NCBI GenBank assembly: GCA_016744755.1
Contig: JADGDT010000013.1
Location: 1 to 48,320 of the forward strand
Length of the DNA: 48,320 nucleotides
Source: Ichthyobacteriaceae bacterium
GTDB taxonomy: Bacteria; Bacteroidota; Bacteroidia; Flavobacteriales; JADGDT01
Direction: 5' to 3'
Shown here piece after piece: positions 7,146-28,299 of the stretch. Every line of letters starts with the position of its first letter. The stretch's first letter is position 1. The notes beneath the pieces are model-generated. The model saw only the letters and a program-made list of their open reading frames with translations. It made no database searches and was not told the origin of the DNA. The position numbers and the translations under genes were made by a program.

Positions 7146-8243
7146 CTATATGATGCTAATTAACTCTTCAATTGCTTCATCAATTTCTTCAATAGTTGTG
7201 TATTTACTAATGCTAAATCTCAATGATGAGAATGATTCATCATCAGAATATCCCATATTTTTTAATACGTGTGAAGGTTCTACTATTCTTGAAGTACAAG
7301 CAGAACCAGAAGAAATCATTACAGTTTTTAGTTTGCTGATTACAATGTCAGCATCAATACCGTTAATTATAACATTTGTAATAAAAGAACTTCTTTTAAC
7401 CTTTTCTCCAATAATTATGCAGTCAAAATTAATCTTAAGTTTTTGCTCCAAATATCTATTTACTTTGATAGGTGTAAGGTTATCTAATTCAACAGAGGCA
7501 CAGGCCTTAGCAAGTCCTACTAGTCCTGGCACATTTGTAGTTCCAGATCTAAAACTATTTTCCTGTCCACCTCCATGCAGTAGAGGAGATACTGAAATCC
7601 CTTCTTTTATGTATAATGCACCAATACCTTTAGGACCATGAAATTTATGACCAGATAAGCATAACATGTCTATTTTTAACTCTTGCAGGTCAACTGGTAT
7701 TTTACCAATTGCCTGAGTAGCATCTACAAATAATTTAGACTTTGTATTTGATACAACCTCTGCAATTGAGTCAATATCTTGAATTATTCCAGTTTCATTA
7801 TTTACCCAAAGAATTGATACTAAGATGGTTTCTTCCTTTATTGCTGGTTTTAATTCTTCAATATTTATTAATCCATTTTTATCTACATCCAAAAATGTTA
7901 CATCAACACCTATATTTTCTAGATATTTACATGTTTCCAAAACAGCTTTGTGTTCTACTTTAGTTGTGATTATATGATTGCCTTTATCAATATTAGATTC
8001 TATATATCCACGAAGTATTGTATTTATACCTTCTGTAGACCCTGCATTAAAGAAGATTTCAGAGCTTTTACAATTAATTAATTCAGAGATTATTTGTCTT
8101 GATTCCTTAACTTTTTTGTTGATTTCATTGCCGAAATAATGCTTACTAGAAGGATTTCCATAAAAACTATTTTGTATGTCATTCATCTCATTTATAACTT
8201 CTTTCGAAGGCTTGGTTGTAGAGGCATTGTCCAGATATATCAT
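7146..8243 (-). CDS. sspA: Cysteine desulfurase (SspA/DndA/IscS-like)
   Basis: MIYLDNASTTKPS, GHKFHGPKGIGALY (PLP lysine), SSGSACTS active-site Cys; divergent from sspB-like gene. Confidence 0.88.
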   Translation of the reverse strand: MIYLDNASTTKPSKEVINEMNDIQNSFYGNPSSKHYFGNEINKKVKESRQIISELINCKSSEIFFNAGSTEGINTILRGYIESNIDKGNHIITTKVEHKAVLETCKYLENIGVDVTFLDVDKNGLINIEELKPAIKEETILVSILWVNNETGIIQDIDSIAEVVSNTKSKLFVDATQAIGKIPVDLQELKIDMLCLSGHKFHGPKGIGALYIKEGISVSPLLHGGGQENSFRSGTTNVPGLVGLAKACASVELDNLTPIKVNRYLEQKLKINFDCIIIGEKVKRSSFITNVIINGIDADIVISKLKTVMISSGSACTSRIVEPSHVLKNMGYSDDESFSSLRFSISKYTTIEEIDEAIEELISII

Positions 8244-8352: not shown

Positions 8353-9240
8353 ATGAACAACAATATAAATTATAAATTTTCAGGGCACGAAACCTTTCAT
8401 TGCCGGCCTATTTGGTTAAAGAAAGGCTATGATTATGCTTTTGAAAACAAGGATATTCCTGGTAATATTTTCAGCAATGATGATGCTGTAATAGAGTTAG
8501 GAGTTGGTAAAAACATGGTATCTTCCATTAAATTCTGGTTACGTGCTTTTGGGTTTTTCAACCTTCACACTAATAGATTAGAAGGATTATCTCATGATAT
8601 TTTAGATGATGATGGTTACGATCCATATTTAGAAAATGATGCTACACTTTACCTTCTACACTATCTACTAATCAAAAATGTGAAGACAGCTTCTATTTAT
8701 AATTTAGCTTTTATAAAACTAGCAAAGGAAAAATTAGAATTTACACCAAGTAACCTTCAAGCTTTTATTGAGAGAAAATGTATCAAAGCAGGAGTAGAAT
8801 ATAATGCTAAAACACTAAAAAATGATATTAATGTTTTCTTAAAAAACTATATTCCCTCTGATGAAAATAAAGGTGGATTAGAAGATAATTTTAACGGACT
8901 TTTTTATGATCTAAGGTTTCTGAATAAAGTTTCTGTAGATGGTGAAAAGAAATTCAGATTCAATATTAATGAAGGGAAGAATTTACCTGAAGTTGTTTTT
9001 CTATATGCATTACTCGATAAATTTGAAGGAGCTACTTCAATAAACCTTGAAGCTATCAGAGATAATGTATCTTCTATATTTTTGATGGAGAAACAAGGAA
9101 CCTATTCATTAATTAAAAGGATTGTTGAAAAATACCCCGATTTTATTACATTTAAAGATGATGGAGGTAGGCAAGAAGTACAGATACGTGAAGGAATTAA
9201 TAAGGACGAGATACTAGAAGAATATTATGCAAGATTTTAA
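8353..9240 (+). CDS. sspB: DUF4007 protein, SspB-like
   Basis: YKFSGHETFHCRPIWLKKGYD...DDAVIELGVGKNMVSSIKFWLRAFG is the DUF4007 signature; context. Confidence 0.8.
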   Translation: MNNNINYKFSGHETFHCRPIWLKKGYDYAFENKDIPGNIFSNDDAVIELGVGKNMVSSIKFWLRAFGFFNLHTNRLEGLSHDILDDDGYDPYLENDATLYLLHYLLIKNVKTASIYNLAFIKLAKEKLEFTPSNLQAFIERKCIKAGVEYNAKTLKNDINVFLKNYIPSDENKGGLEDNFNGLFYDLRFLNKVSVDGEKKFRFNINEGKNLPEVVFLYALLDKFEGATSINLEAIRDNVSSIFLMEKQGTYSLIKRIVEKYPDFITFKDDGGRQEVQIREGINKDEILEEYYARF

Positions 9241-12200
9241 TGTTTCTACAAATATTATAAGAGATGAGGATGCTAATCTAAACTACATTGTAACAAAAAA
9301 TGCTAGTGAAAATTTTAACCTTATTGCTTCAAATTACAGACAAAATAATAAGTTTCAAGCTATAATTGGATCTTATGGCACTGGTAAATCGTCTTTTTTA
9401 TGGGCATTTGAGAAGAACATAAAGGGTAAACGTAATTACTTTAGTTCTTTGGCAGAAAGTTATCCTGGAATCAAAACTGCCAAGTTTATTAAAATAATAG
9501 GAGAATATAAGTCTATCTCTCATTCCTTAGCTAAAGTTTTGCTTATTGATGAAGATAAGGAAAATATTGAGGAAAAAGTATTAGACAAATTATCTAAGGC
9601 TATAAAAGCAAACTGGAAAAAGAAAGCTGTCACTGTTTTAATAATTGATGAGTTTGGTAAATTTCTAGAGTATGCAGTGAAGAATAATCCTGATAAAGAA
9701 GTATATTTTATTCAGTTATTAGCTGAGTTCTTTAATAACTCAAAGCAAACAGCATTATCAATATCTAGTTTACATCAAAATTTTTCTTCTTACGGACAAT
9801 CTCTAAATGATGAGCAATTCAAAGAATGGGAAAAAGTAAAAGGTAGGTTAAAAGAAGTAGCCTTTAATGAACCGATAGATCAACTATTATTTTTTGCATC
9901 TAAAAAAAATAAATTTGAAAATATCAAATTAAAAGGGCAACAAAGAGAATTATTTAATACAATACTTGACCACAACGTTTCAGATAAAAAACAGACAATT
10001 GATTTAGAACTTGCAGAATCCTTGCTTCCAATGGATTATATATCTGCAGAAATAATTGCTAAATCTTTACAACGCTACGGACAAAATGAAAGATCCCTCT
10101 TTTCATTTCTAGATATAGATGAAAGCTACTCTTTCAAGAGGTTTTACAACAAAGCAGAAGAACCTGCAAATAATGATGTATACAACCTTAATATGGTTTT
10201 TGACTATATTCTAGAACACTACTATTTTGTAATATCGTCTAATACGAATTCCGACCTTACAATGTGGAATTCCATCAAATCAGCACTCGATCAAGTTGAT
10301 ACTAGATTAAATGATAATCACGTAATTGATGGCCGACAAATAGTAAAAACTATTGGACTATTAAATATATTCTCTAATGCTGGAGCAAACATTAATAAAG
10401 TGTTTATTGAGAAATATGCTAAACTAGCTTTAGGTATAAATAACGCTAATGAAATAATATCTGAACTAGTAAATCAGAAAATAATATCTTATAAAGATTT
10501 TAAGCATAAGTATGTTTTTGTTGATTGGACAGATATTAATATAGATCACGAATTACAGAATGCAGATGTTAGAGATGTTATAAATATAGCTGACCGTATT
10601 TCAGAAATAGAAGAGTTTAATCCAGTACTTGTAAAAAGTGAATATTTTAGAACAGGAACACCACGTTTGTTTGAATATAGTTTTACTGATAGTCCAATAA
10701 CTGAAGTTCCAGATTCGAAAGACGGTATAATAAATTATATATTATCTGAAGACAAAATTAAAATTGAAAACTATAATCAACCGATATTATATGCAGTTTT
10801 TAATAATACAACTGACATTATTGGAGCTTTCAATGATATAGACAGGGCCTTATATGTAAAAGGTAACAACTTGCAAGATAGATCTGCAGTAAAGGAACTT
10901 GAGGAACGAATTTTTTACAGCACCAAAAACCTTAAGAGTATTTTAGTTGATGATGTCTATTTTAATGATAACATTAAATGGCACTATGCTGGAAAAGAAC
11001 AAAAAATAGGTAATCGGCTGGAATTTAACAGGTTATTAAATAAGGTATTATCTGATAACTATAGACATTCACCTATTCTGAAAAGTGAATTAGTAAATAA
11101 AAGTAAAATTAGTACTCCTATTTCTACAGCACGTAAAAACCTAATTACACAATTAATAAATAATAGAGAAAAATATAATATTGGCTTTGATGCTGATAAG
11201 TTCCCTCCGGAGAAGACAATTTATCTATCGCTAATTAAAAAGACAGGTATTCACCGTTTCAATAAGAAAAATAATTCTTTTGAACTTGGAGAACCAAACT
11301 TCAAAGGGAATGACGAGATAATAAATAGCTTTAAATACCTATGGAATACTTCTACAGTTTTTTTAGAAAATTCTAAAAAAGGGAAGTTAAGTGTTAAATC
11401 ATTTGCAGAAACACTTGCAAAAGAACCTTTGAAATTAAAACAAGGTTTAATAGATTTCTGGATACCATTATTCCTTATTACAAAAAAAGACGAATATGCC
11501 CTTTTCAACGAGAATGGTTATATCCCAAATATAGATACACAAGTTTTTGATGTGATGTATAAGTCACCACAAAAATTCTTTGTGAAAGGTTTTGATGTAA
11601 GCGGTATTAAGCTCGAAGTATTTAATAAATATAAAAGTATTTTAGATCAGAGTAAATCAGAATTACCGTCGGAAAAAGATTTTATTAATACTATTAAACC
11701 ATTTATTTTATTTGTTAGAGCATTACCTGAATATTCACTAAGAACAAGTAATTTATCGCAACAATCTATAGATTTAAGAGAAGCCATAAAAAATGCTAAA
11801 GATCCTGAAAAAGCATTTTTTGAAGAGTTTCCTAAAGCTTTAAACTATTCTGAGGCATTACAATCTGGGGATTCAAAAATGCTTAAAGGGTTTGTAGAAA
11901 AAATGGAAACTTCTATAATGGAGATTCGTGGTAGCTATGATAATTTGATTGACAGGTTTGAAGATGTTGTTATCTCAACTCTAAAAACTAAGAAAAAGGA
12001 TTTTGAAAAATATCAATCATTATTAAATAAAAATTTAAAGACAATTGATTCAAGTATTCTTAATCCAAAATTAAGAAGCTTAAAAAATAACTGTGTAGCT
12101 CCCAAAACAGAAAGGAAAGCTTTTTTAGAAGGAATAGCATTTGCTGTACTGGGGAAAGCCATGAATAAAATTAATGACCATGAAGAATTAATGCTTCATA

Positions 12201-12460
12201 AAGAATTTTCAAAAAACTATAGCCACTTATTAGATCTAGTAAAAGTTCATGAATTAAAAGCGTCAAATAAAGACTCAGAGGTCTATGGAATTAATATATT
12301 CGATGCCGATGGTAAAGAAAAAAAACATCGAGTGGTTATTGCTAACGAAAAAATAGCAACTTTAAACGAAGAAGTTAAAAATATTAATTCTAGCTTTAAC
12401 GGAATAGATAAGGATTTGAGAAGAGCAGTGTTAATAGAATTGCTAAAGCAAGATATATAA
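9227..12460 (+). CDS. sspC: Large P-loop ATPase, SspC-like
   Basis: IIGSYGTGKSSFLWAFEKNI Walker A, VTVLIIDEFGKFLEYA Walker B; overlaps sspB-like ORF by 14 nt. Confidence 0.78.
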   Translation: MQDFNVSTNIIRDEDANLNYIVTKNASENFNLIASNYRQNNKFQAIIGSYGTGKSSFLWAFEKNIKGKRNYFSSLAESYPGIKTAKFIKIIGEYKSISHSLAKVLLIDEDKENIEEKVLDKLSKAIKANWKKKAVTVLIIDEFGKFLEYAVKNNPDKEVYFIQLLAEFFNNSKQTALSISSLHQNFSSYGQSLNDEQFKEWEKVKGRLKEVAFNEPIDQLLFFASKKNKFENIKLKGQQRELFNTILDHNVSDKKQTIDLELAESLLPMDYISAEIIAKSLQRYGQNERSLFSFLDIDESYSFKRFYNKAEEPANNDVYNLNMVFDYILEHYYFVISSNTNSDLTMWNSIKSALDQVDTRLNDNHVIDGRQIVKTIGLLNIFSNAGANINKVFIEKYAKLALGINNANEIISELVNQKIISYKDFKHKYVFVDWTDINIDHELQNADVRDVINIADRISEIEEFNPVLVKSEYFRTGTPRLFEYSFTDSPITEVPDSKDGIINYILSEDKIKIENYNQPILYAVFNNTTDIIGAFNDIDRALYVKGNNLQDRSAVKELEERIFYSTKNLKSILVDDVYFNDNIKWHYAGKEQKIGNRLEFNRLLNKVLSDNYRHSPILKSELVNKSKISTPISTARKNLITQLINNREKYNIGFDADKFPPEKTIYLSLIKKTGIHRFNKKNNSFELGEPNFKGNDEIINSFKYLWNTSTVFLENSKKGKLSVKSFAETLAKEPLKLKQGLIDFWIPLFLITKKDEYALFNENGYIPNIDTQVFDVMYKSPQKFFVKGFDVSGIKLEVFNKYKSILDQSKSELPSEKDFINTIKPFILFVRALPEYSLRTSNLSQQSIDLREAIKNAKDPEKAFFEEFPKALNYSEALQSGDSKMLKGFVEKMETSIMEIRGSYDNLIDRFEDVVISTLKTKKKDFEKYQSLLNKNLKTIDSSILNPKLRSLKNNCVAPKTERKAFLEGIAFAVLGKAMNKINDHEELMLHKEFSKNYSHLLDLVKVHELKASNKDSEVYGINIFDADGKEKKHRVVIANEKIATLNEEVKNINSSFNGIDKDLRRAVLIELLKQDI

Positions 12461-12462
12461 TA

Positions 12463-13632
12463 ATGTCAGACGTAAAACATGTAATAGGAATTTCAGGAGG
12501 TAAAGATAGTTGTGCATTGGCAATATATCTTAATAAGTTGTATCCAGAAATGGATTTCACTTATTATTCTGCGGATACTGGTAGAGAGCTTTCAGAAACT
12601 TATACTCTTATAGAGCAGTTAGAAATTGAACTTGGAGTAAAGGTTGATACATTAGAACCTATTGATTTTAAAAATCAGAACTTAGAAAGTGTTTTCGATT
12701 TCTACCTACAGCAATACGACAATTACTTACCTTCTACTAATGCTAGGTGGTGCACTAAAAGAATGAAGTTAGATCCATTCGAAAAATGGATAAAAGATAC
12801 TCCTACTATCTCTTATGTAGGTATTAGAGGAGATGAAGATAGAGAAGGATACATCTCTACAAAACCACATATACAATCTATATTTCCTTTCCGAAAAAAC
12901 ATATGGAGTGTTGATGTAATTAAACTTTTATTTAATGCTGAGTTTGAATTTGTAAAGGAATTATACACTAAGCATTTATCAGGAGATAAACTTGAGAATG
13001 TACTTACTCTACTTGATAGAAGGTTGAATTTTGCCTTTAATAGAGATAAAAAAGTTGATGCTTTATTAAATATAGATATAAAAGCATTCAATAAAGTAGT
13101 ATTTGACTTTCTAAAAACAACAGAATTACCAGTGGGAAAATTAGATTATTTTCCATTGATAGAGAATGATGATATTGTTATTAGACAAGATGTATTCGAT
13201 ATTATTGAAGATAGTGCTGTTGATTTACCCGCATACTATAAACCTTTACCATACGAAGTAGATGGAGAGAAAGGACAGTATAACCGTAGTCGTTCAGGCT
13301 GTTTCTTCTGTTTCTATCAGCAGAAAATTGAATGGGTATGGTTGCTAGAACAACATCCAGTCCTTTTCAAAAAAGCAATGGAATACGAGAAGGAAGGTTA
13401 TAACTGGGTAGAGACAGAAAGTCTTGCTGAACTTTCAAATCCAGAGAGAGTAGAGTCTATAAAACGAGAGCATCTTAAGAGGATGAAACGTAAATATAAA
13501 AACTTGAAAAAGGATACCGACTGGCAAGACGATATCCTTGGTGTAAATAAAGTTAAAGACACAAACAACCCACAATGGCTCAACGAACTTGAAGATGCCG
13601 AAGGTGATGGTTGTGCTAGTTGTTTTATATGA
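12463..13632 (+). CDS. sspD: PP-loop ATP pyrophosphatase / PAPS reductase-like (DndC/SspD-like)
   Basis: VIGISGGKDSCALAIYL PP-loop; RWCTKRMK; SGCFFCFYQQKIEWVWLLEQHP Cys motif. Confidence 0.85.
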   Translation: MSDVKHVIGISGGKDSCALAIYLNKLYPEMDFTYYSADTGRELSETYTLIEQLEIELGVKVDTLEPIDFKNQNLESVFDFYLQQYDNYLPSTNARWCTKRMKLDPFEKWIKDTPTISYVGIRGDEDREGYISTKPHIQSIFPFRKNIWSVDVIKLLFNAEFEFVKELYTKHLSGDKLENVLTLLDRRLNFAFNRDKKVDALLNIDIKAFNKVVFDFLKTTELPVGKLDYFPLIENDDIVIRQDVFDIIEDSAVDLPAYYKPLPYEVDGEKGQYNRSRSGCFFCFYQQKIEWVWLLEQHPVLFKKAMEYEKEGYNWVETESLAELSNPERVESIKREHLKRMKRKYKNLKKDTDWQDDILGVNKVKDTNNPQWLNELEDAEGDGCASCFI

Positions 13633-16394: not shown

Positions 16395-18536
16395 TTATAG
16401 TTGCATTACTTTAGAGTTAATTGTACTAAGCTTTTTACTATCAAAAGGTCTTTCTAGTTTTACCCACATCGCCTTACTTCGTTTTACCTTATCAAATTCT
16501 GGTTTTATAAATAAATTGCTATTAGCATCAGTCCCAATAAAGTCTTTGGTTAGTAATATTATTTGCTTCTTTGTACTTGAAATAATATTTAAAAATTCAC
16601 CTGTTTTCGTTTCTCCAAATGATGAAGTTGGAGCATCAAATATTAATGGATAACTCTCATCATGACTTCCCTCAGCAAGTTTTGAAATAGCAAATAAAAT
16701 TGAAATGTGCATAGATGTGAGTAGGGATTGATTAGGGTTATGAAATTTATTATCACCCTCATATAAATCTACGCTCAATCTTATTTTTGAGCTTGAAATA
16801 TTTCTTTTTGCAAACTCTATACGCCCAGTAAATGCCCCTTTGTTAATACTAACAAAAAACTCATTAGATTTATCTTGTAAAATCTTGATAAACTGATCAA
16901 ATTTATACTCCTTAGTATCTTTAAAAATACTCTCAAGATCCTTAACAATATCACGCGATTTTATTAAAAATGAGTTTGCAGACTTTAGATCAATATTCTT
17001 CTTCTCTACAGTATACTTAGATAAATTTTGTTTTTCCAAGTTAAGATCTGCTAACAGATGGCCTTTATTCTTATTAATTTTAGTAATATCCCCCTGCCAA
17101 TTATTATAATTATCTAGTACATCACCAAGTTTATCCTTACCTATAGATGAAGAACCAATGATCTTATTTATCTCGTCTTTTTCTTTTTCAATTTTCACCC
17201 TAATTAGTTCAACCTCACTTTTACGTTTGTTATTGAATTCTAATTGCTCTTTAATTGTCTTTTCAACACTTCTAAGGCCTTTTAAATTATCATTATTTTG
17301 ATTCGCTAGATTCGTTAATTCCGAAATATAATCTTTAATAAAGAGTACTTCTTCTATTTCATCTATAGGTTCCTGCTTTTCTATATATTCATTTAACCTA
17401 TCTACCATGTACTTATATGCCTTAGACCCTTCCTTTGCAGGCCTGCCACAAACTTTACAGAATTCTTCTTTAATTAACTCCTGCATAGTGCTTTTATCAG
17501 GTACATTAAAAGGTAATGGAATGGTATCGCTTAACAATTCTGAAACGGCACTTAATGCTCCCTGCTTTCTTCCTATTTCTTTATCAAACTCAGACTGAAT
17601 AATTCTTTTTTCAAATCCATAATTTTGAATTTTAGCTTGAAATTGATTAAATATTGTTTCAAAATCTTTCAATATCCAACTTCTATCAAATAGATATGTG
17701 GTGTATTCATCTTTAACAACACTTATTTCCCTCCTTTCATCCTCTTCAAGTTTACTAATTCTAGTATTGACTACTTCTAAAGCTGTTGCATTGTCAACAT
17801 ACTTCTTAGCGTTTTCGATTAGACCTTCAGTTTTATCAATTTCTTCATCAAAATCAGACAGGTCTTTTTCAAATCCATTTATTCTACGATTAGTTGATGA
17901 AATTTGACTTTCTAGAATCTTATTTTTTTGTTGATTTTTTTTATCAGATGAATAGGACTTTGAAACAGCATCATCTGCTTTCTTAAATAAGAACTCCCCT
18001 GTTGTACTATATTTATCATAATGCTTAGCATCAGAAAAGAGATTAATTAAGTTTATTAACGCATCCTCATTGTTGAAAATATCTAACTCTGATTCTCCTT
18101 TAAAAATCGAGTATTTTCTTATCTCACTTGGAAATATTTGTTTAATCAGTAAATCACCATCAACTCTTGATCTTTCCCCCTTAGAATTTTCTTCAATGCC
18201 TTCAAATCTATTTTCAGTAACTTGAGTTGCTCCAATATTTCTTTTTTGAGCAATGAATGATCTTGACAGTAGTTTGGTATCCCCAAATTGTTCTACCTCT
18301 ATTGAAACACTTACTTTCAACCTTTCTCCAGTATCTATTTCTGATAGTTTTTTAGCTGAGATTAGTTGTTCTAAGTTACGAGAACCTCCGTTTAAAAGCC
18401 ACTCAATAGCTTCTATCAACTTGGTCTTACCTTCTCCATTCTCTCCTAGAACAATATTTAGACCATCACTAAAATTAAATGTGTTACTATCATAATAACA
18501 CATGTAGTTTTCAATTTTAACACTCTTTATTATCAT
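16395..18536 (-). CDS. SMC/DndD-like AAA ATPase with Zn-hook motif (SspFGH-like component)
   Basis: IENYMCYYDSNTFNFSDGLNIVLGENGEGKTKLIEAIEWLL; CKVCGRP hook; YPLIFDAPTSSFGETKTGEFL Walker B. Confidence 0.85.
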   Translation of the reverse strand: MIIKSVKIENYMCYYDSNTFNFSDGLNIVLGENGEGKTKLIEAIEWLLNGGSRNLEQLISAKKLSEIDTGERLKVSVSIEVEQFGDTKLLSRSFIAQKRNIGATQVTENRFEGIEENSKGERSRVDGDLLIKQIFPSEIRKYSIFKGESELDIFNNEDALINLINLFSDAKHYDKYSTTGEFLFKKADDAVSKSYSSDKKNQQKNKILESQISSTNRRINGFEKDLSDFDEEIDKTEGLIENAKKYVDNATALEVVNTRISKLEEDERREISVVKDEYTTYLFDRSWILKDFETIFNQFQAKIQNYGFEKRIIQSEFDKEIGRKQGALSAVSELLSDTIPLPFNVPDKSTMQELIKEEFCKVCGRPAKEGSKAYKYMVDRLNEYIEKQEPIDEIEEVLFIKDYISELTNLANQNNDNLKGLRSVEKTIKEQLEFNNKRKSEVELIRVKIEKEKDEINKIIGSSSIGKDKLGDVLDNYNNWQGDITKINKNKGHLLADLNLEKQNLSKYTVEKKNIDLKSANSFLIKSRDIVKDLESIFKDTKEYKFDQFIKILQDKSNEFFVSINKGAFTGRIEFAKRNISSSKIRLSVDLYEGDNKFHNPNQSLLTSMHISILFAISKLAEGSHDESYPLIFDAPTSSFGETKTGEFLNIISSTKKQIILLTKDFIGTDANSNLFIKPEFDKVKRSKAMWVKLERPFDSKKLSTINSKVMQL

Positions 18537-18793
18537 TATGCAGTTGTATTTAAGTGTTGCGTAATTAATCTATGTATTGTTTGATCAGAGTCTCTCTTCT
18601 CTTTTTCAGAGGCATCAACAATTAATCCAATAGCTTTAATTATTGGGATGTTTGAACTTAAGGACTGCCTTAATGTAATATTTAAGTCATCATCTGATAA
18701 TTTGTATTTGCTTTTCAGTACATCATGTTCTAAAAAACTTTTAAATATGTCATCTTTCCTTGCCATAATCTTTATTCTAGTTATCTTTTTCAA
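18536..18793 (-). CDS. Small hypothetical protein; start may be internal Met at 18766
   Basis: Sits between and overlaps flanking operon genes; MARKDDIFKSFLEHD... alternative start. Confidence 0.65.
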   Translation of the reverse strand: MKKITRIKIMARKDDIFKSFLEHDVLKSKYKLSDDDLNITLRQSLSSNIPIIKAIGLIVDASEKEKRDSDQTIHRLITQHLNTTA

Positions 18794-21036: not shown

Positions 21037-21270
21037 TCAAAAACCATCAGAAAAAAACTCTTCTAAACTTACATTTAGCTTATCTAAGATTCTTTTTAAC
21101 GTATAAATATTTAAATTGGTTTTACCCAATTCATACTTACGGTATTGGGAACGCCCCATACTAAGTTCATCGGCAAAAACTTCATGATTAGAATACTTAT
21201 TTTCTTTTCTAATCTTTTCAAGTTTCTCACCTACTTTAAGTAAATACTTTTCTTTTTCCGATAATTGCAT
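21037..21270 (-). CDS. XRE-family HTH regulator heading the SspFGH/E operon
   Basis: IRKENKYSNHEVFADELSMGRSQYRKYELGKTNLNIYTLKRIL HTH_3; ORF track starts at a TTG (21300), ATG at 21270 more likely. Confidence 0.8.
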   Translation of the reverse strand: MQLSEKEKYLLKVGEKLEKIRKENKYSNHEVFADELSMGRSQYRKYELGKTNLNIYTLKRILDKLNVSLEEFFSDGF

Positions 21271-21274
21271 ATAA

Positions 21275-21327
21275 TTGTTAAAACTCGTGATTTTTAACAA
21301 ATTATTACTCCTGTTAAAACAGGAGTA
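21275..21327 (-). promoter_or_regulatory. Two perfect inverted repeats upstream of XRE gene (putative operators)
   Basis: TTGTTAAAA-N8-TTTTAACAA (21275-21300) and TACTCCTGTT-AA-AACAGGAGTA (21306-21327). Confidence 0.65.
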
Positions 21328-21545
21328 TAGACATGATGTTTATCACATGCTAAAATATGTCCTATCCATATAATACATAATAACTTGGTTAAATATAACA
21401 CTGATTTCAAGTATAAATTTATTGATATATCCTTGCTCTGAAATTATTTATAAAACCTACTATAAAACTATAATTCATCATTGCCATAAACTGAATTGAA
21501 AATAAGTTATTTACTATTTCATAAAAATAATGAAAACACAATAAT

Positions 21546-21588
21546 TGTAACGTTTGTACCTGTAATTACGTTACATTAACTATATTTG
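21546..21588 (+). promoter_or_regulatory. AbiEi promoter with 8-bp inverted repeat and Bacteroidota -7 box
   Basis: TGTAACGT (21546-21553) / ACGTTACA (21568-21575), then TATATTTG (21581-21588, TAnnTTTG). Confidence 0.6.
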
Positions 21589-21608: not shown

Positions 21609-22334
21609 ATGAGTTTCACAGGTACAATAAAGGAAAATATAGCACAGTTCAAAGATGGATATGTATTCACGTACAGTGATTTTAACATAGATCCTAAAAA
21701 TGAGAGTGCTTTAAAAGTTTCTTTATACCGATTAGTTAAATCAGGTAAAATAGTTAGATTCTCAAAAGGTCGTTTCTACAAACCTAAAAAAGGAATAATC
21801 GGCAACTTAAAACCAGATGAGTACGAAATTGTAAAAGATTTGCTCAACGATGAAAATAAAACAATTGGGTATGTTACTGGCTATTCAATTTTCAATGCTC
21901 TAAAATTAACTACACAAGTTCCTAACGTAATTCAAATAGGCGCTAACTTTGATAAAAAAGGAATAAAAAGGAATATATACACAATTAAGTTTGTACGTCA
22001 GTGGAATGAAATTACAGCTGAGAACACTCCCTTACTACAGCTTTTGGATTGCATAAGATTCATTAAAAATATACCAGATACAACAATAGAAGTCTCTATT
22101 AAACGTATCCAAAGTTTATTAAATGATCTTTCTGATGAAGAAATTAAATCACTTACTCGTTTAGTTTTAAACTACCCTCCTTCTACAAAAGCTCTTACAG
22201 GTGCAATGCTAGAACTATTAGATTATGATAAAGAGTCTGATGAAATATACAAATCACTGAAATTAACAAGTTGGTATAAATTCAATATTGATGAATCCTT
22301 CCTACCCAACAAACTAAAATGGAAAATACAATGA
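21609..22334 (+). CDS. AbiEi-family (type IV TA) antitoxin
   Basis: N-terminal wHTH then GRFYKPKKG...EYEIVKDLL...GYVTGYSIFNALKLTTQVPN typical of AbiEi/DUF6088. Confidence 0.8.
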   Translation: MSFTGTIKENIAQFKDGYVFTYSDFNIDPKNESALKVSLYRLVKSGKIVRFSKGRFYKPKKGIIGNLKPDEYEIVKDLLNDENKTIGYVTGYSIFNALKLTTQVPNVIQIGANFDKKGIKRNIYTIKFVRQWNEITAENTPLLQLLDCIRFIKNIPDTTIEVSIKRIQSLLNDLSDEEIKSLTRLVLNYPPSTKALTGAMLELLDYDKESDEIYKSLKLTSWYKFNIDESFLPNKLKWKIQ

Positions 22335-25232: not shown

Positions 25233-26489
25233 ATGGCAAAGAATAAAACAGGCATATTTGTATATGCAGATTGGCTTGGAATGGCAGAACCAAAGCTTTT
25301 AGGCACACTTACGGCTCAACATGGTAAAGATAGAAAATCGTTTAGCTTCAAATATAACAAGGAGTGGTTAAATACTAATGAACAATTAATATTAGCCCCT
25401 GATATTAGTTTCTACTCAGGGCATCAATTTCCAAATAGTAAAGATAATTTTGGAGTGTTGTTAGACTCTATGCCTGATACTTGGGGTAGAACGTTGATGA
25501 AACGCAGATCGGCTATTATAGCCAAAGAAAATGAGACTAAATCACCTGTATTATACGATATTGATTTCTTGCTAGGTGTTTATGACGAAAGTAGAATGGG
25601 AGCATTGCGTTTTAAGCTTGATGAAGATGGTGCATTTTTAGATGATAATAAATACCAGCCTACACCACCTTGGTCGTCTATTAGAGAATTGCAATACAGT
25701 GCCAAGATGTTGGAGAGTGATTCAAAAAGTGATGAAATTAATAAATGGATAAATATATTGATGGCACCAGGCTCTTCTCTTGGAGGAGCTCGTCCTAAAG
25801 CTAATATTCTTGATAATGATAATCATCCATGGATAGCTAAATTCCCATCGAAAAATGATGTGATAGATAAAGCTAAATGGGAATACTTAGCATACTTACT
25901 GTCATTAAAGGCAGGAATAGATATGTCTAACTCTAAAATTGAAAAGATTGCTGGAAACTACCATACTTTCTTTACTAAACGTTTTGACAGACTCAATGGC
26001 GAACGTGTACATTTCGCATCGGCAATGACCATGACAGGTAATAACGAAGATACCATTAGAGATAATACTGCAAGCTATTTAGATATTGCAGAGTTTATAC
26101 AATACAACGGAGCTCAGCCTACAAAAGATTTACATCAATTATGGAGAAGGATAATATTCAATATTGCAATTTCTAATACCGATGATCATTTAAGAAATCA
26201 CGGTTTCATTCTTACTAATAAGGGATGGATATTATCTCCTGCCTATGACGTAAACCCTTCTATTGACAAAGATGGTTTAGCATTGAATATAGATATGGAT
26301 AACAGTGTATTGGATATTCATTTAGCTCGTAGTGTAGGGGAGTATTTTCAATTAGACAACAACGGTATGGATTTGATAATTAAAGAGGTTAATGAAGCTG
26401 TTATTAGTACGTGGAATGAAACAGCTATACAAATAGGTATTTCACGTGCAGATATTCAGTTAATGGAACATGCTTTTAGAAAGTTGTAA
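25233..26489 (+). CDS. hipA: HipA-family serine/threonine kinase toxin
   Basis: SSLGGARPKANI, FNIAISNTDDHLRNHGFIL, LSPAYDVNPS motifs. Confidence 0.92.
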   Translation: MAKNKTGIFVYADWLGMAEPKLLGTLTAQHGKDRKSFSFKYNKEWLNTNEQLILAPDISFYSGHQFPNSKDNFGVLLDSMPDTWGRTLMKRRSAIIAKENETKSPVLYDIDFLLGVYDESRMGALRFKLDEDGAFLDDNKYQPTPPWSSIRELQYSAKMLESDSKSDEINKWINILMAPGSSLGGARPKANILDNDNHPWIAKFPSKNDVIDKAKWEYLAYLLSLKAGIDMSNSKIEKIAGNYHTFFTKRFDRLNGERVHFASAMTMTGNNEDTIRDNTASYLDIAEFIQYNGAQPTKDLHQLWRRIIFNIAISNTDDHLRNHGFILTNKGWILSPAYDVNPSIDKDGLALNIDMDNSVLDIHLARSVGEYFQLDNNGMDLIIKEVNEAVISTWNETAIQIGISRADIQLMEHAFRKL

Positions 26490-26791: not shown

Positions 26792-28027
26792 CTAAAATCT
26801 TGAACGAATAGTCTTCAAACTAGTCTCTATAGTTTTAATTGAAGTTTCGGAAACTCCAGACAGTTCAGCATATTCTCTCCAACGATCGATGATGCCTTTT
26901 ATCTCATCTATGGTTACCTTTGCTTTGTTGATAGATAATGCATCCGCCAATTCTAGTAACTCTTTTCTTCCTGGATCTACATAATTTCTAGCGCAAGCTG
27001 TACTATGATATCCCTGAGAAGATGAGGAGAATGTTAAGTCATAAGCTGGTGCAAGTGACCATACCCCTTCAGCATCCATTAGGAACGCAAAGTTTTTAGA
27101 ATGGTCATCACGGTTATGTGCCAGAACATTGAAAACAGTTCTACGGAACATTTGTTCAGCAGATTGTGCGTTATTTGTTAGCTTCTTTGCTTGGTATATT
27201 AAGTTCCCATAGTCAAGAGTACTGTGCTCATAGTCATCATGAAGAAGTCCTGCAGCTGAGAGCATATGAAGCTTATCATTTCCAACACGGTCGAATCTCT
27301 TGGTTCCAAAATAGCTATTCCCACTGTCACTGCTAAACACTCTACACTCAGACATTTCAACCCCTGCATCCAAGGCCATTTTATAATAGGCTAGCTCTAT
27401 ATTGGCAATATCTTTCGAATCTACATCTGCTGCAAATTTGATAATCCAATGTTCATATCCTTCTGGAAGATTAGCGATGCCACTAATGAGTGAATCTGTC
27501 TTAGGGTTATATCCTGCATAAATTTTTGGTCGTGCTCCACCGGGGCTCCCTCCTATTCCGAACATATCATCAATTACAGCACTACTCTCACCCCTGATTA
27601 CTTCAGAAATATTGTCGTTTAGTTTATCTAGATTAATTTCTATAGCCTCCTGCTCTAAATCTACACTCGGTCTGTAATGAAGTGCTCCCATACTATTATT
27701 CCCTGCAAAGGTCAAATGATCCAATGCATTGAGAGATTCTATAGCAATACTATCAGCACTAAGGCGTTTCTTTATTAGTAAGTATCCCCAAGCATCTGGC
27801 AAAGAATCAGCAAACACGCCAAAGAGGCCATTGAATGGTTTTTCTTTAGTAGTTTGAGGATTATTATCAAACTCCAATTGACTAGGAGAAAAGTTTTTTC
27901 CTGCTTCTAAATAAGCATCACTATATTTAAATAATATAGTCCTACCATCTAAAATAAGCTGACCTATTAGTTCTTCTTGTTTAGAAAATTGTATAAATAC
28001 ATCGAGTTTAGTTGTCTCCATAATCAA
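26792..28027 (-). CDS. hipA: HipA-family kinase toxin (second module)
   Basis: GGSPGGARPKIY, FNVLAHNRDDHSKNFAFLMD, LAPAYDLTFS motifs. Confidence 0.92.
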   Translation of the reverse strand: MIMETTKLDVFIQFSKQEELIGQLILDGRTILFKYSDAYLEAGKNFSPSQLEFDNNPQTTKEKPFNGLFGVFADSLPDAWGYLLIKKRLSADSIAIESLNALDHLTFAGNNSMGALHYRPSVDLEQEAIEINLDKLNDNISEVIRGESSAVIDDMFGIGGSPGGARPKIYAGYNPKTDSLISGIANLPEGYEHWIIKFAADVDSKDIANIELAYYKMALDAGVEMSECRVFSSDSGNSYFGTKRFDRVGNDKLHMLSAAGLLHDDYEHSTLDYGNLIYQAKKLTNNAQSAEQMFRRTVFNVLAHNRDDHSKNFAFLMDAEGVWSLAPAYDLTFSSSSQGYHSTACARNYVDPGRKELLELADALSINKAKVTIDEIKGIIDRWREYAELSGVSETSIKTIETSLKTIRSRF

Positions 28028-28299
28028 TAATCAAATAAATCCTTTTTACGTTTAATATCAATTGGAAGCAATATTAATTCAAAGTCTGTAAGACGCTTCA
28101 GAGCTTCACTGATCTTTAGAAGTGATTCAAGAGAAATAATACCTGTTGACTCAAATTTCCGAATACTAGCGTAAGCTACTCCAGATCTCTCCGACAATTC
28201 CTTCTGAGACATCTTCTTCTCTTTTCTTAAATCTCTGATGTTTTTTGATAAAAGAATCATTATCTCTTTAGGTGATTTTTCATCTCCGTACTCTCCCAT
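28024..28299 (-). CDS. hipB: XRE antitoxin (HipB-like, second module)
   Basis: LRKEKKMSQKELSERSGVAYASIRKFES; 4-nt overlap with hipA-like gene. Confidence 0.85.
   Translation of the reverse strand: MGEYGDEKSPKEIMILLSKNIRDLRKEKKMSQKELSERSGVAYASIRKFESTGIISLESLLKISEALKRLTDFELILLPIDIKRKKDLFDY

Follow-up and report, generated by a model that had tools for sequence, protein, structure and literature searches.

A probable local control switch, an XRE gene with upstream palindromes, heads a phosphorothioate restriction operon

A small XRE regulator gene stands first in the effector operon of an SspABCD-PbeABCD phosphorothioate defence locus, directly behind two perfect palindromes. We propose, with a probability of roughly 0.68, that its product is a dedicated, autoregulated controller of the restriction side of this system, resembling C proteins in its logic. 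From the arrangement of the sequence, we infer that an XRE dimer would bind within its operon's own promoter region, at palindrome 1 and perhaps, at lower affinity, also at palindrome 2. The bound protein would determine how much XRE, PbeABCD, and DUF262 effector is made, all presumably from one transcript, and the modification genes would run from promoters other than that of the XRE-effector operon. Since the dyads fill the promoter-proximal region, negative feedback is the most likely sign of this control. Because the palindromes are real and relatives of the XRE gene lead restriction genes elsewhere, the arrangement is probably a local, self-regulating control switch.

The window (the whole 48,320-nucleotide stretch analysed here) contains sspABCD together with an effector operon that converges on sspBCD (Table 1). 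pbeA was identified by profile, and pbeB, pbeC, and pbeD by weaker matches combined with conserved position and identity. The DUF262/HNH protein had no PADLOC SspE match. The preliminary description had placed the XRE gene at the start of the restriction operon, and this holds: a gene of C-protein size lies 31 bp before pbeA, with the minus strand used throughout. As the contig also carries an integrase gene, excisionase-type HTH_17 genes, a NikA-like gene (below the cut-off), and a primase gene, a mobile element is likely. Thus, the mobile setting suggested earlier for the phosphorothioate system is likely correct, with integrase and mobilisation-type genes beside the locus. Downstream of the defence genes lie a HipA_C gene (window 25233-26489) and a second, similar gene (26792-28299) beside an HTH_3 gene.

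Table 1. Genes and predicted sites of the locus, in window coordinates.
Feature	Position	Strand	Basis or remark
77-aa XRE (HTH_3) regulator, leading the effector operon	21037..21270	-	ATG 21270, stop 21037
Palindrome 1, predicted main operator	21306..21327	-	TACTCCTGTT-TT-AACAGGAGTA as read on the XRE strand; 36-57 nt upstream of the ATG
Palindrome 2, possible second, weaker site	21275..21300	-	5-30 nt upstream of the ATG
pbeA, PLD-like domain and SF2 helicase, 742 aa	18777..21005	-	PADLOC PbeA, E 3e-290; Pfam
Small pbeB-like protein, listed as 85 aa with a TTG start	18536..18793	-	Position; 46-47% identity to the small genes that other Pbe loci have there
pbeC, ABC/SMC-like ATPase, 713 aa	16395..18536	-	LmuB/PbeC profiles; Pfam; position matches relatives
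pbeD (DndE-type position), 170 aa	15880..16392	-	Weak dnd_assoc_4; 59-63% identity, same place in several loci
DUF262 (GmrSD_N) protein, C-terminal DHHIFP motif, SspE-like architecture, 732 aa	13637..15835	-	Pfam GmrSD_N; sequence
sspB (DUF4007), convergent with the effector operon	8353..9240	+	PADLOC, E 1e-84
sspC	9227..12460	+	PADLOC, E 0
sspD	12463..13632	+	PADLOC, E 2.5e-84
sspA/dndA cysteine desulfurase, divergent from sspB	7146..8243	-	PADLOC, E 5e-133

We characterized the XRE protein. Its ATG start is favoured because the N-termini of relatives support it; if translation instead began at a TTG at 21300, which has GGAG 8 nt ahead of it, the gene would include palindrome 2. The protein matches Pfam HTH_3 (45.5 bits, cut-off 23) and is small and single-domain, as C proteins are. 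Its best PADLOC profile is Control_protein (2.1e-7, 29.1 bits; the XRE protein that heads another Pbe operon, G530, reaches 69.7 bits). A PDB search recovered C.BclI with marginal similarity (E 0.038). With a structural model of modest confidence, the best Foldseek matches were C.BclI (TM 0.71) and C.Esp1396I (TM 0.60) at E about 0.07, and none reached E <= 0.001. A search for a toxin gene adjoining XRE, as in a toxin-antitoxin pair, found none; the neighbour is pbeA.

Both palindromes match exactly what had been described before, two inverted repeats within 60 nt upstream of the XRE ATG. Palindrome 1 (TACTCCTGTT-AA-AACAGGAGTA at 21306-21327) has perfect 10-bp arms and a 2-nt spacer; palindrome 2 (TTGTTAAAA-N8-TTTTAACAA at 21275-21300) is AT-rich, with perfect 9-bp arms and an 8-nt spacer. 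On the minus strand, the order is TACTCCTGTTTTAACAGGAGTA (21327-21306), 5 nt, TTGTTAAAAATCACGAGTTTTAACAA (21300-21275), 4 nt, and the XRE ATG at 21270. The two dyads differ in sequence, share the 9-mer TGTTAAAAC, and have centres 29 bp apart. Palindrome 1 was equalled in none of 200 shuffles of the 300 nt upstream of XRE (20.6, against 20.2 for the best shuffle), and the window holds 3 repeats with arms of >=10 and spacers of <=4, compared to 0.45 in shuffles. AT-rich palindromes are common here, with 10 perfect repeats having arms of >=9 and spacers of <=10 where shuffles have 5; since this is about twice as many 9-bp arms as in shuffles, palindrome 2 is statistically weak by itself. In the 3.6-Mb genome, palindrome 1 occurs exactly once, the next best site differing at 2 positions, and allowing 0-1 mismatch finds palindrome 2 nowhere else. 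Copies sought before sspA and sspB were absent. Because the palindromes are thus locus-specific, any control through them would affect the XRE-effector genes only. A scan for Bacteroidota-type promoters returned weak sites. Nearby, a further perfect 10-bp inverted repeat, TTGTACCTGT / ACAGGTACAA (window 21554-21563 and 21618-21627), flanks the start of a DUF6088/AbiEi-like gene (21609-22334).

Close relatives of the XRE protein are rare. Among 398 genomes of the order, a single-sequence search at E <= 1e-12 found them in 2 further genomes; a six-row profile (1e-14) reached 21 of 398, and a three-row profile (1e-10) detected relatives in 12 of 396 genomes across the phylum. In the tree, the window protein joins that of G082 with support of 96/94, and G726 is added at 82/53, on a long window branch and with a bootstrap that had not settled. 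Both of these relatives lead restriction genes: G726 (L034) heads a Dnd-Pbe operon, and G082 (L057) heads a DndF-DndG operon, lying between dndCDE and dndF-dndG (L057 3616-11135) and separated from dndE by an apparent terminator, AAAGGAGC...GCTCCTTTTTTT. HNH_4 genes adjoin both loci, the Dnd-Pbe locus (L034 10130-11191) and the Dnd-FGH locus (L057 11381-12469). In G268, an XRE gene lies 1.5 kb away from sspA-pbe. Linkage was considered and rejected; the placement is probably chance, since G649 has the same XRE gene and neighbours without Pbe in the stretch read. On plasmids there was a single relative (38% identity), surrounded by unrelated genes. We found no relatives in phage records and one in viral contigs (L088), with no phosphorothioate neighbours in the stretch read. 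In L036 and L056, XRE relatives adjoin serine recombinase genes and have inverted repeats upstream.

We also asked how often XRE genes of any lineage lead Pbe operons. An XRE gene lies directly before pbeA in 4 of approximately 19 distinct Pbe loci (the window, G726, G023, and G530); G654 is a fifth locus with an XRE gene, which there lies before sspA-pbeA. In most of the loci examined, pbeA is not directly preceded by an XRE gene; several of these carry sspA in that position and have no XRE gene. In six Pbe loci (L037, L038, L040, L041, L042, and L058), sspA is directly before pbeA in the same orientation, so that a modification gene sits with the effectors there. In G358, a small HTH-like gene (L065 4623-4955) is directly before dndC of a Dnd-Pbe locus. 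The G530 gene (L043 5389-5601) encodes a clear C-protein homologue, unrelated to the window XRE, that heads pbeABCD in a Dnd-type locus; it matches C.AhdI (2e-10) and PADLOC Control_protein (4.5e-20). Upstream of it (-46) is GACTATTGTCCGTTGTATATTGTC, a tandem C-box arrangement of the kind known for C.Esp1396I (PMC3758141). This pattern, which was written after the site was seen, occurred in 3 of 20000 shuffles. The G023 gene, likewise unrelated to the window XRE and heading a Pbe operon, has a spacerless, perfect 18-bp palindrome 45-62 nt upstream (P 0.003).

These comparisons bear on the idea that a generic orphan XRE regulator came to lie before pbeA by chance, with ordinary autoregulatory palindromes and no role in restriction. 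Such autoregulation from palindromes is common among XRE regulators (PMC12565409), and the other family members are mostly stand-alone or beside unrelated genes, as this idea would predict. Against it are the 31-bp gap and the strand shared with pbeA, the grouping of the three restriction-heading family members in the tree, and the unrelated XRE genes that hold the same place in other Pbe loci. We consider a chance placement unlikely.

If the palindromes are operators, repeats might recur upstream of other family members. Inverted repeats with P <= 0.05 were present in 11 of 26 family upstream regions; among controls, taken upstream of other genes of those loci, 25 of 140 had one (Fisher P 0.008). 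Between -85 and -30, repeats were present in 9 of 26 family regions and 8 of 140 controls (P 0.0002). Both P values are somewhat optimistic, since this band was chosen after seeing the positions and the 26 regions include near-duplicates. One of the 11, a strong repeat upstream of G082, was rejected as an operator because it looks like the dndE terminator. An unguided motif search of 20 de-duplicated family upstream regions gave 61.3 for w14, compared to 44.7 in shuffles (sd 2.9). Many of the motif sites lie at about -60 to -75; the window site coincides with palindrome 1 and scores low (4.9-5.9). The close relative G726 has no significant inverted repeat upstream of its XRE gene (P 0.93), and the half-site of palindrome 1 was not significantly conserved in the upstream regions of G726 and G082 (P 0.11 and 0.13). 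The left part of palindrome 2, TGTTAAAAATCAC, resembles TGTTAAAAACCAC upstream of the G726 gene (P 0.003, or about 0.07 after correction for the 25 loci tested).

The same repeats could act as RNA. The folding energy is -11.8 kcal/mol for palindrome 1 (z -4.65) and -17.9 for both palindromes together (z -5.4), and a terminator scan flagged palindrome 1, all of which would suit hairpins in the operon leader that serve as an attenuator, terminator, or stability element rather than as protein operators. However, ATAATTTGTT, the tail, makes a poor U tract, the family repeats include long-spacer dyads and dyads that are not hairpins, placed at a preferred distance, and the G023 palindrome is spacerless, as is typical of operators. 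Leader hairpins are therefore an improbable explanation, and we favour protein operators for an autoregulated XRE controller.

How closely this putative controller follows the C-protein paradigm is a separate matter. The preliminary description had likened the circuit to C-protein control. Gene size, gene order, locus-specific palindromes, and the C-protein homologue in G530 agree with that comparison; the absence of GAC/GTC boxes and the weak profile score do not. As in the Type II systems of C.AhdI, C.Esp1396I, C.BclI, and C.Csp231I, a small HTH_3 protein is encoded by the first gene of the restriction operon with palindromes just upstream, and the modification genes lie outside the operon, as they do in Type II C systems. 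Unlike Type II C proteins, the window XRE has no GAC/GTC C-boxes, its dyads are unlike one another and 29 bp apart, and the modification is phosphorothioation. A scan of the window for tandem C-boxes (GAC...GTC), one class of C-protein operator among others, found none.

In a true timing switch of the C-protein type, XRE would activate its own operon by positive feedback from the distal dyad and repress it from the proximal dyad, so that restriction would wait for sspBCD to modify the chromosome. The gene order resembles that of C-R operons, two dyads lie in tandem, the context is mobile, and the operon of the same kind in G530 is headed by a clear C protein with a tandem C-box. In addition, one XRE relative heads DndFGH, and both DndFGH and SspFGH have been reported as toxic when modification is missing (PMC8092258, PMC12707154). 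In contrast, the dissimilar window dyads, with their 29-bp centre-to-centre distance and no C-boxes, are not what such a switch predicts. The rationale for a delay is also weakened for these effectors, because archaeal PbeABCD caused no notable toxicity without modification (PMC6459918) and SspE acts only with phosphorothioate (PMC8092258). A delay would fit toxic modules such as DndFGH better than PbeABCD or SspE. We therefore regard a full timing switch at this locus as doubtful, although restriction could be delayed for a time once the locus reaches a new host.

The proposed XRE controller can be compared with other regulated defence systems. A multi-gene system headed by a C-type regulator shares the leading position of the regulator, but there the regulator appears to repress the whole operon, including the methylation genes, whereas the window sites are before the effector operon only. 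RptR, the repressor of a Type I restriction-modification island, is likewise small, encoded in the defence locus, and active on the locus promoter; it binds TAGCTA direct repeats (PMC12255303), and no such arrangement was identified at the window locus. DndB is likewise a local regulator within a phosphorothioate system, but it targets the modification operon dndBCDE and not the restriction genes (PMC6459918), whereas the window XRE sits on the restriction side. SspABCD-SspE/SspFGH and DndCDEA-PbeABCD have the same modification and effector modules as the window locus. The open-access papers searched cover C proteins in methylation systems and DndB in phosphorothioate modification; in them, we found no description of an XRE gene heading the effector operon of these systems, nor of an XRE controller heading phosphorothioate restriction operons in general.

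A broader proposal, for which we see the odds as about even, is that dedicated XRE controllers head phosphorothioate restriction modules (PbeABCD or DndFGH, with Ssp or Dnd modification) and that different XRE lineages supplied them on more than one occasion. If this is true, they would form an unreported layer of control in these systems, equivalent to the C proteins of methylation-based systems. Only a fraction of the sites is marked in phosphorothioate defence, and host DNA that lacks the modification is damaged by some restriction modules. How restriction keeps step with modification is the question that a restriction-side controller would address. A controller gene on the restriction side, together with a defined candidate operator, makes this coordination directly testable and would connect phosphorothioate systems with restriction-modification, whose control circuits are well understood.
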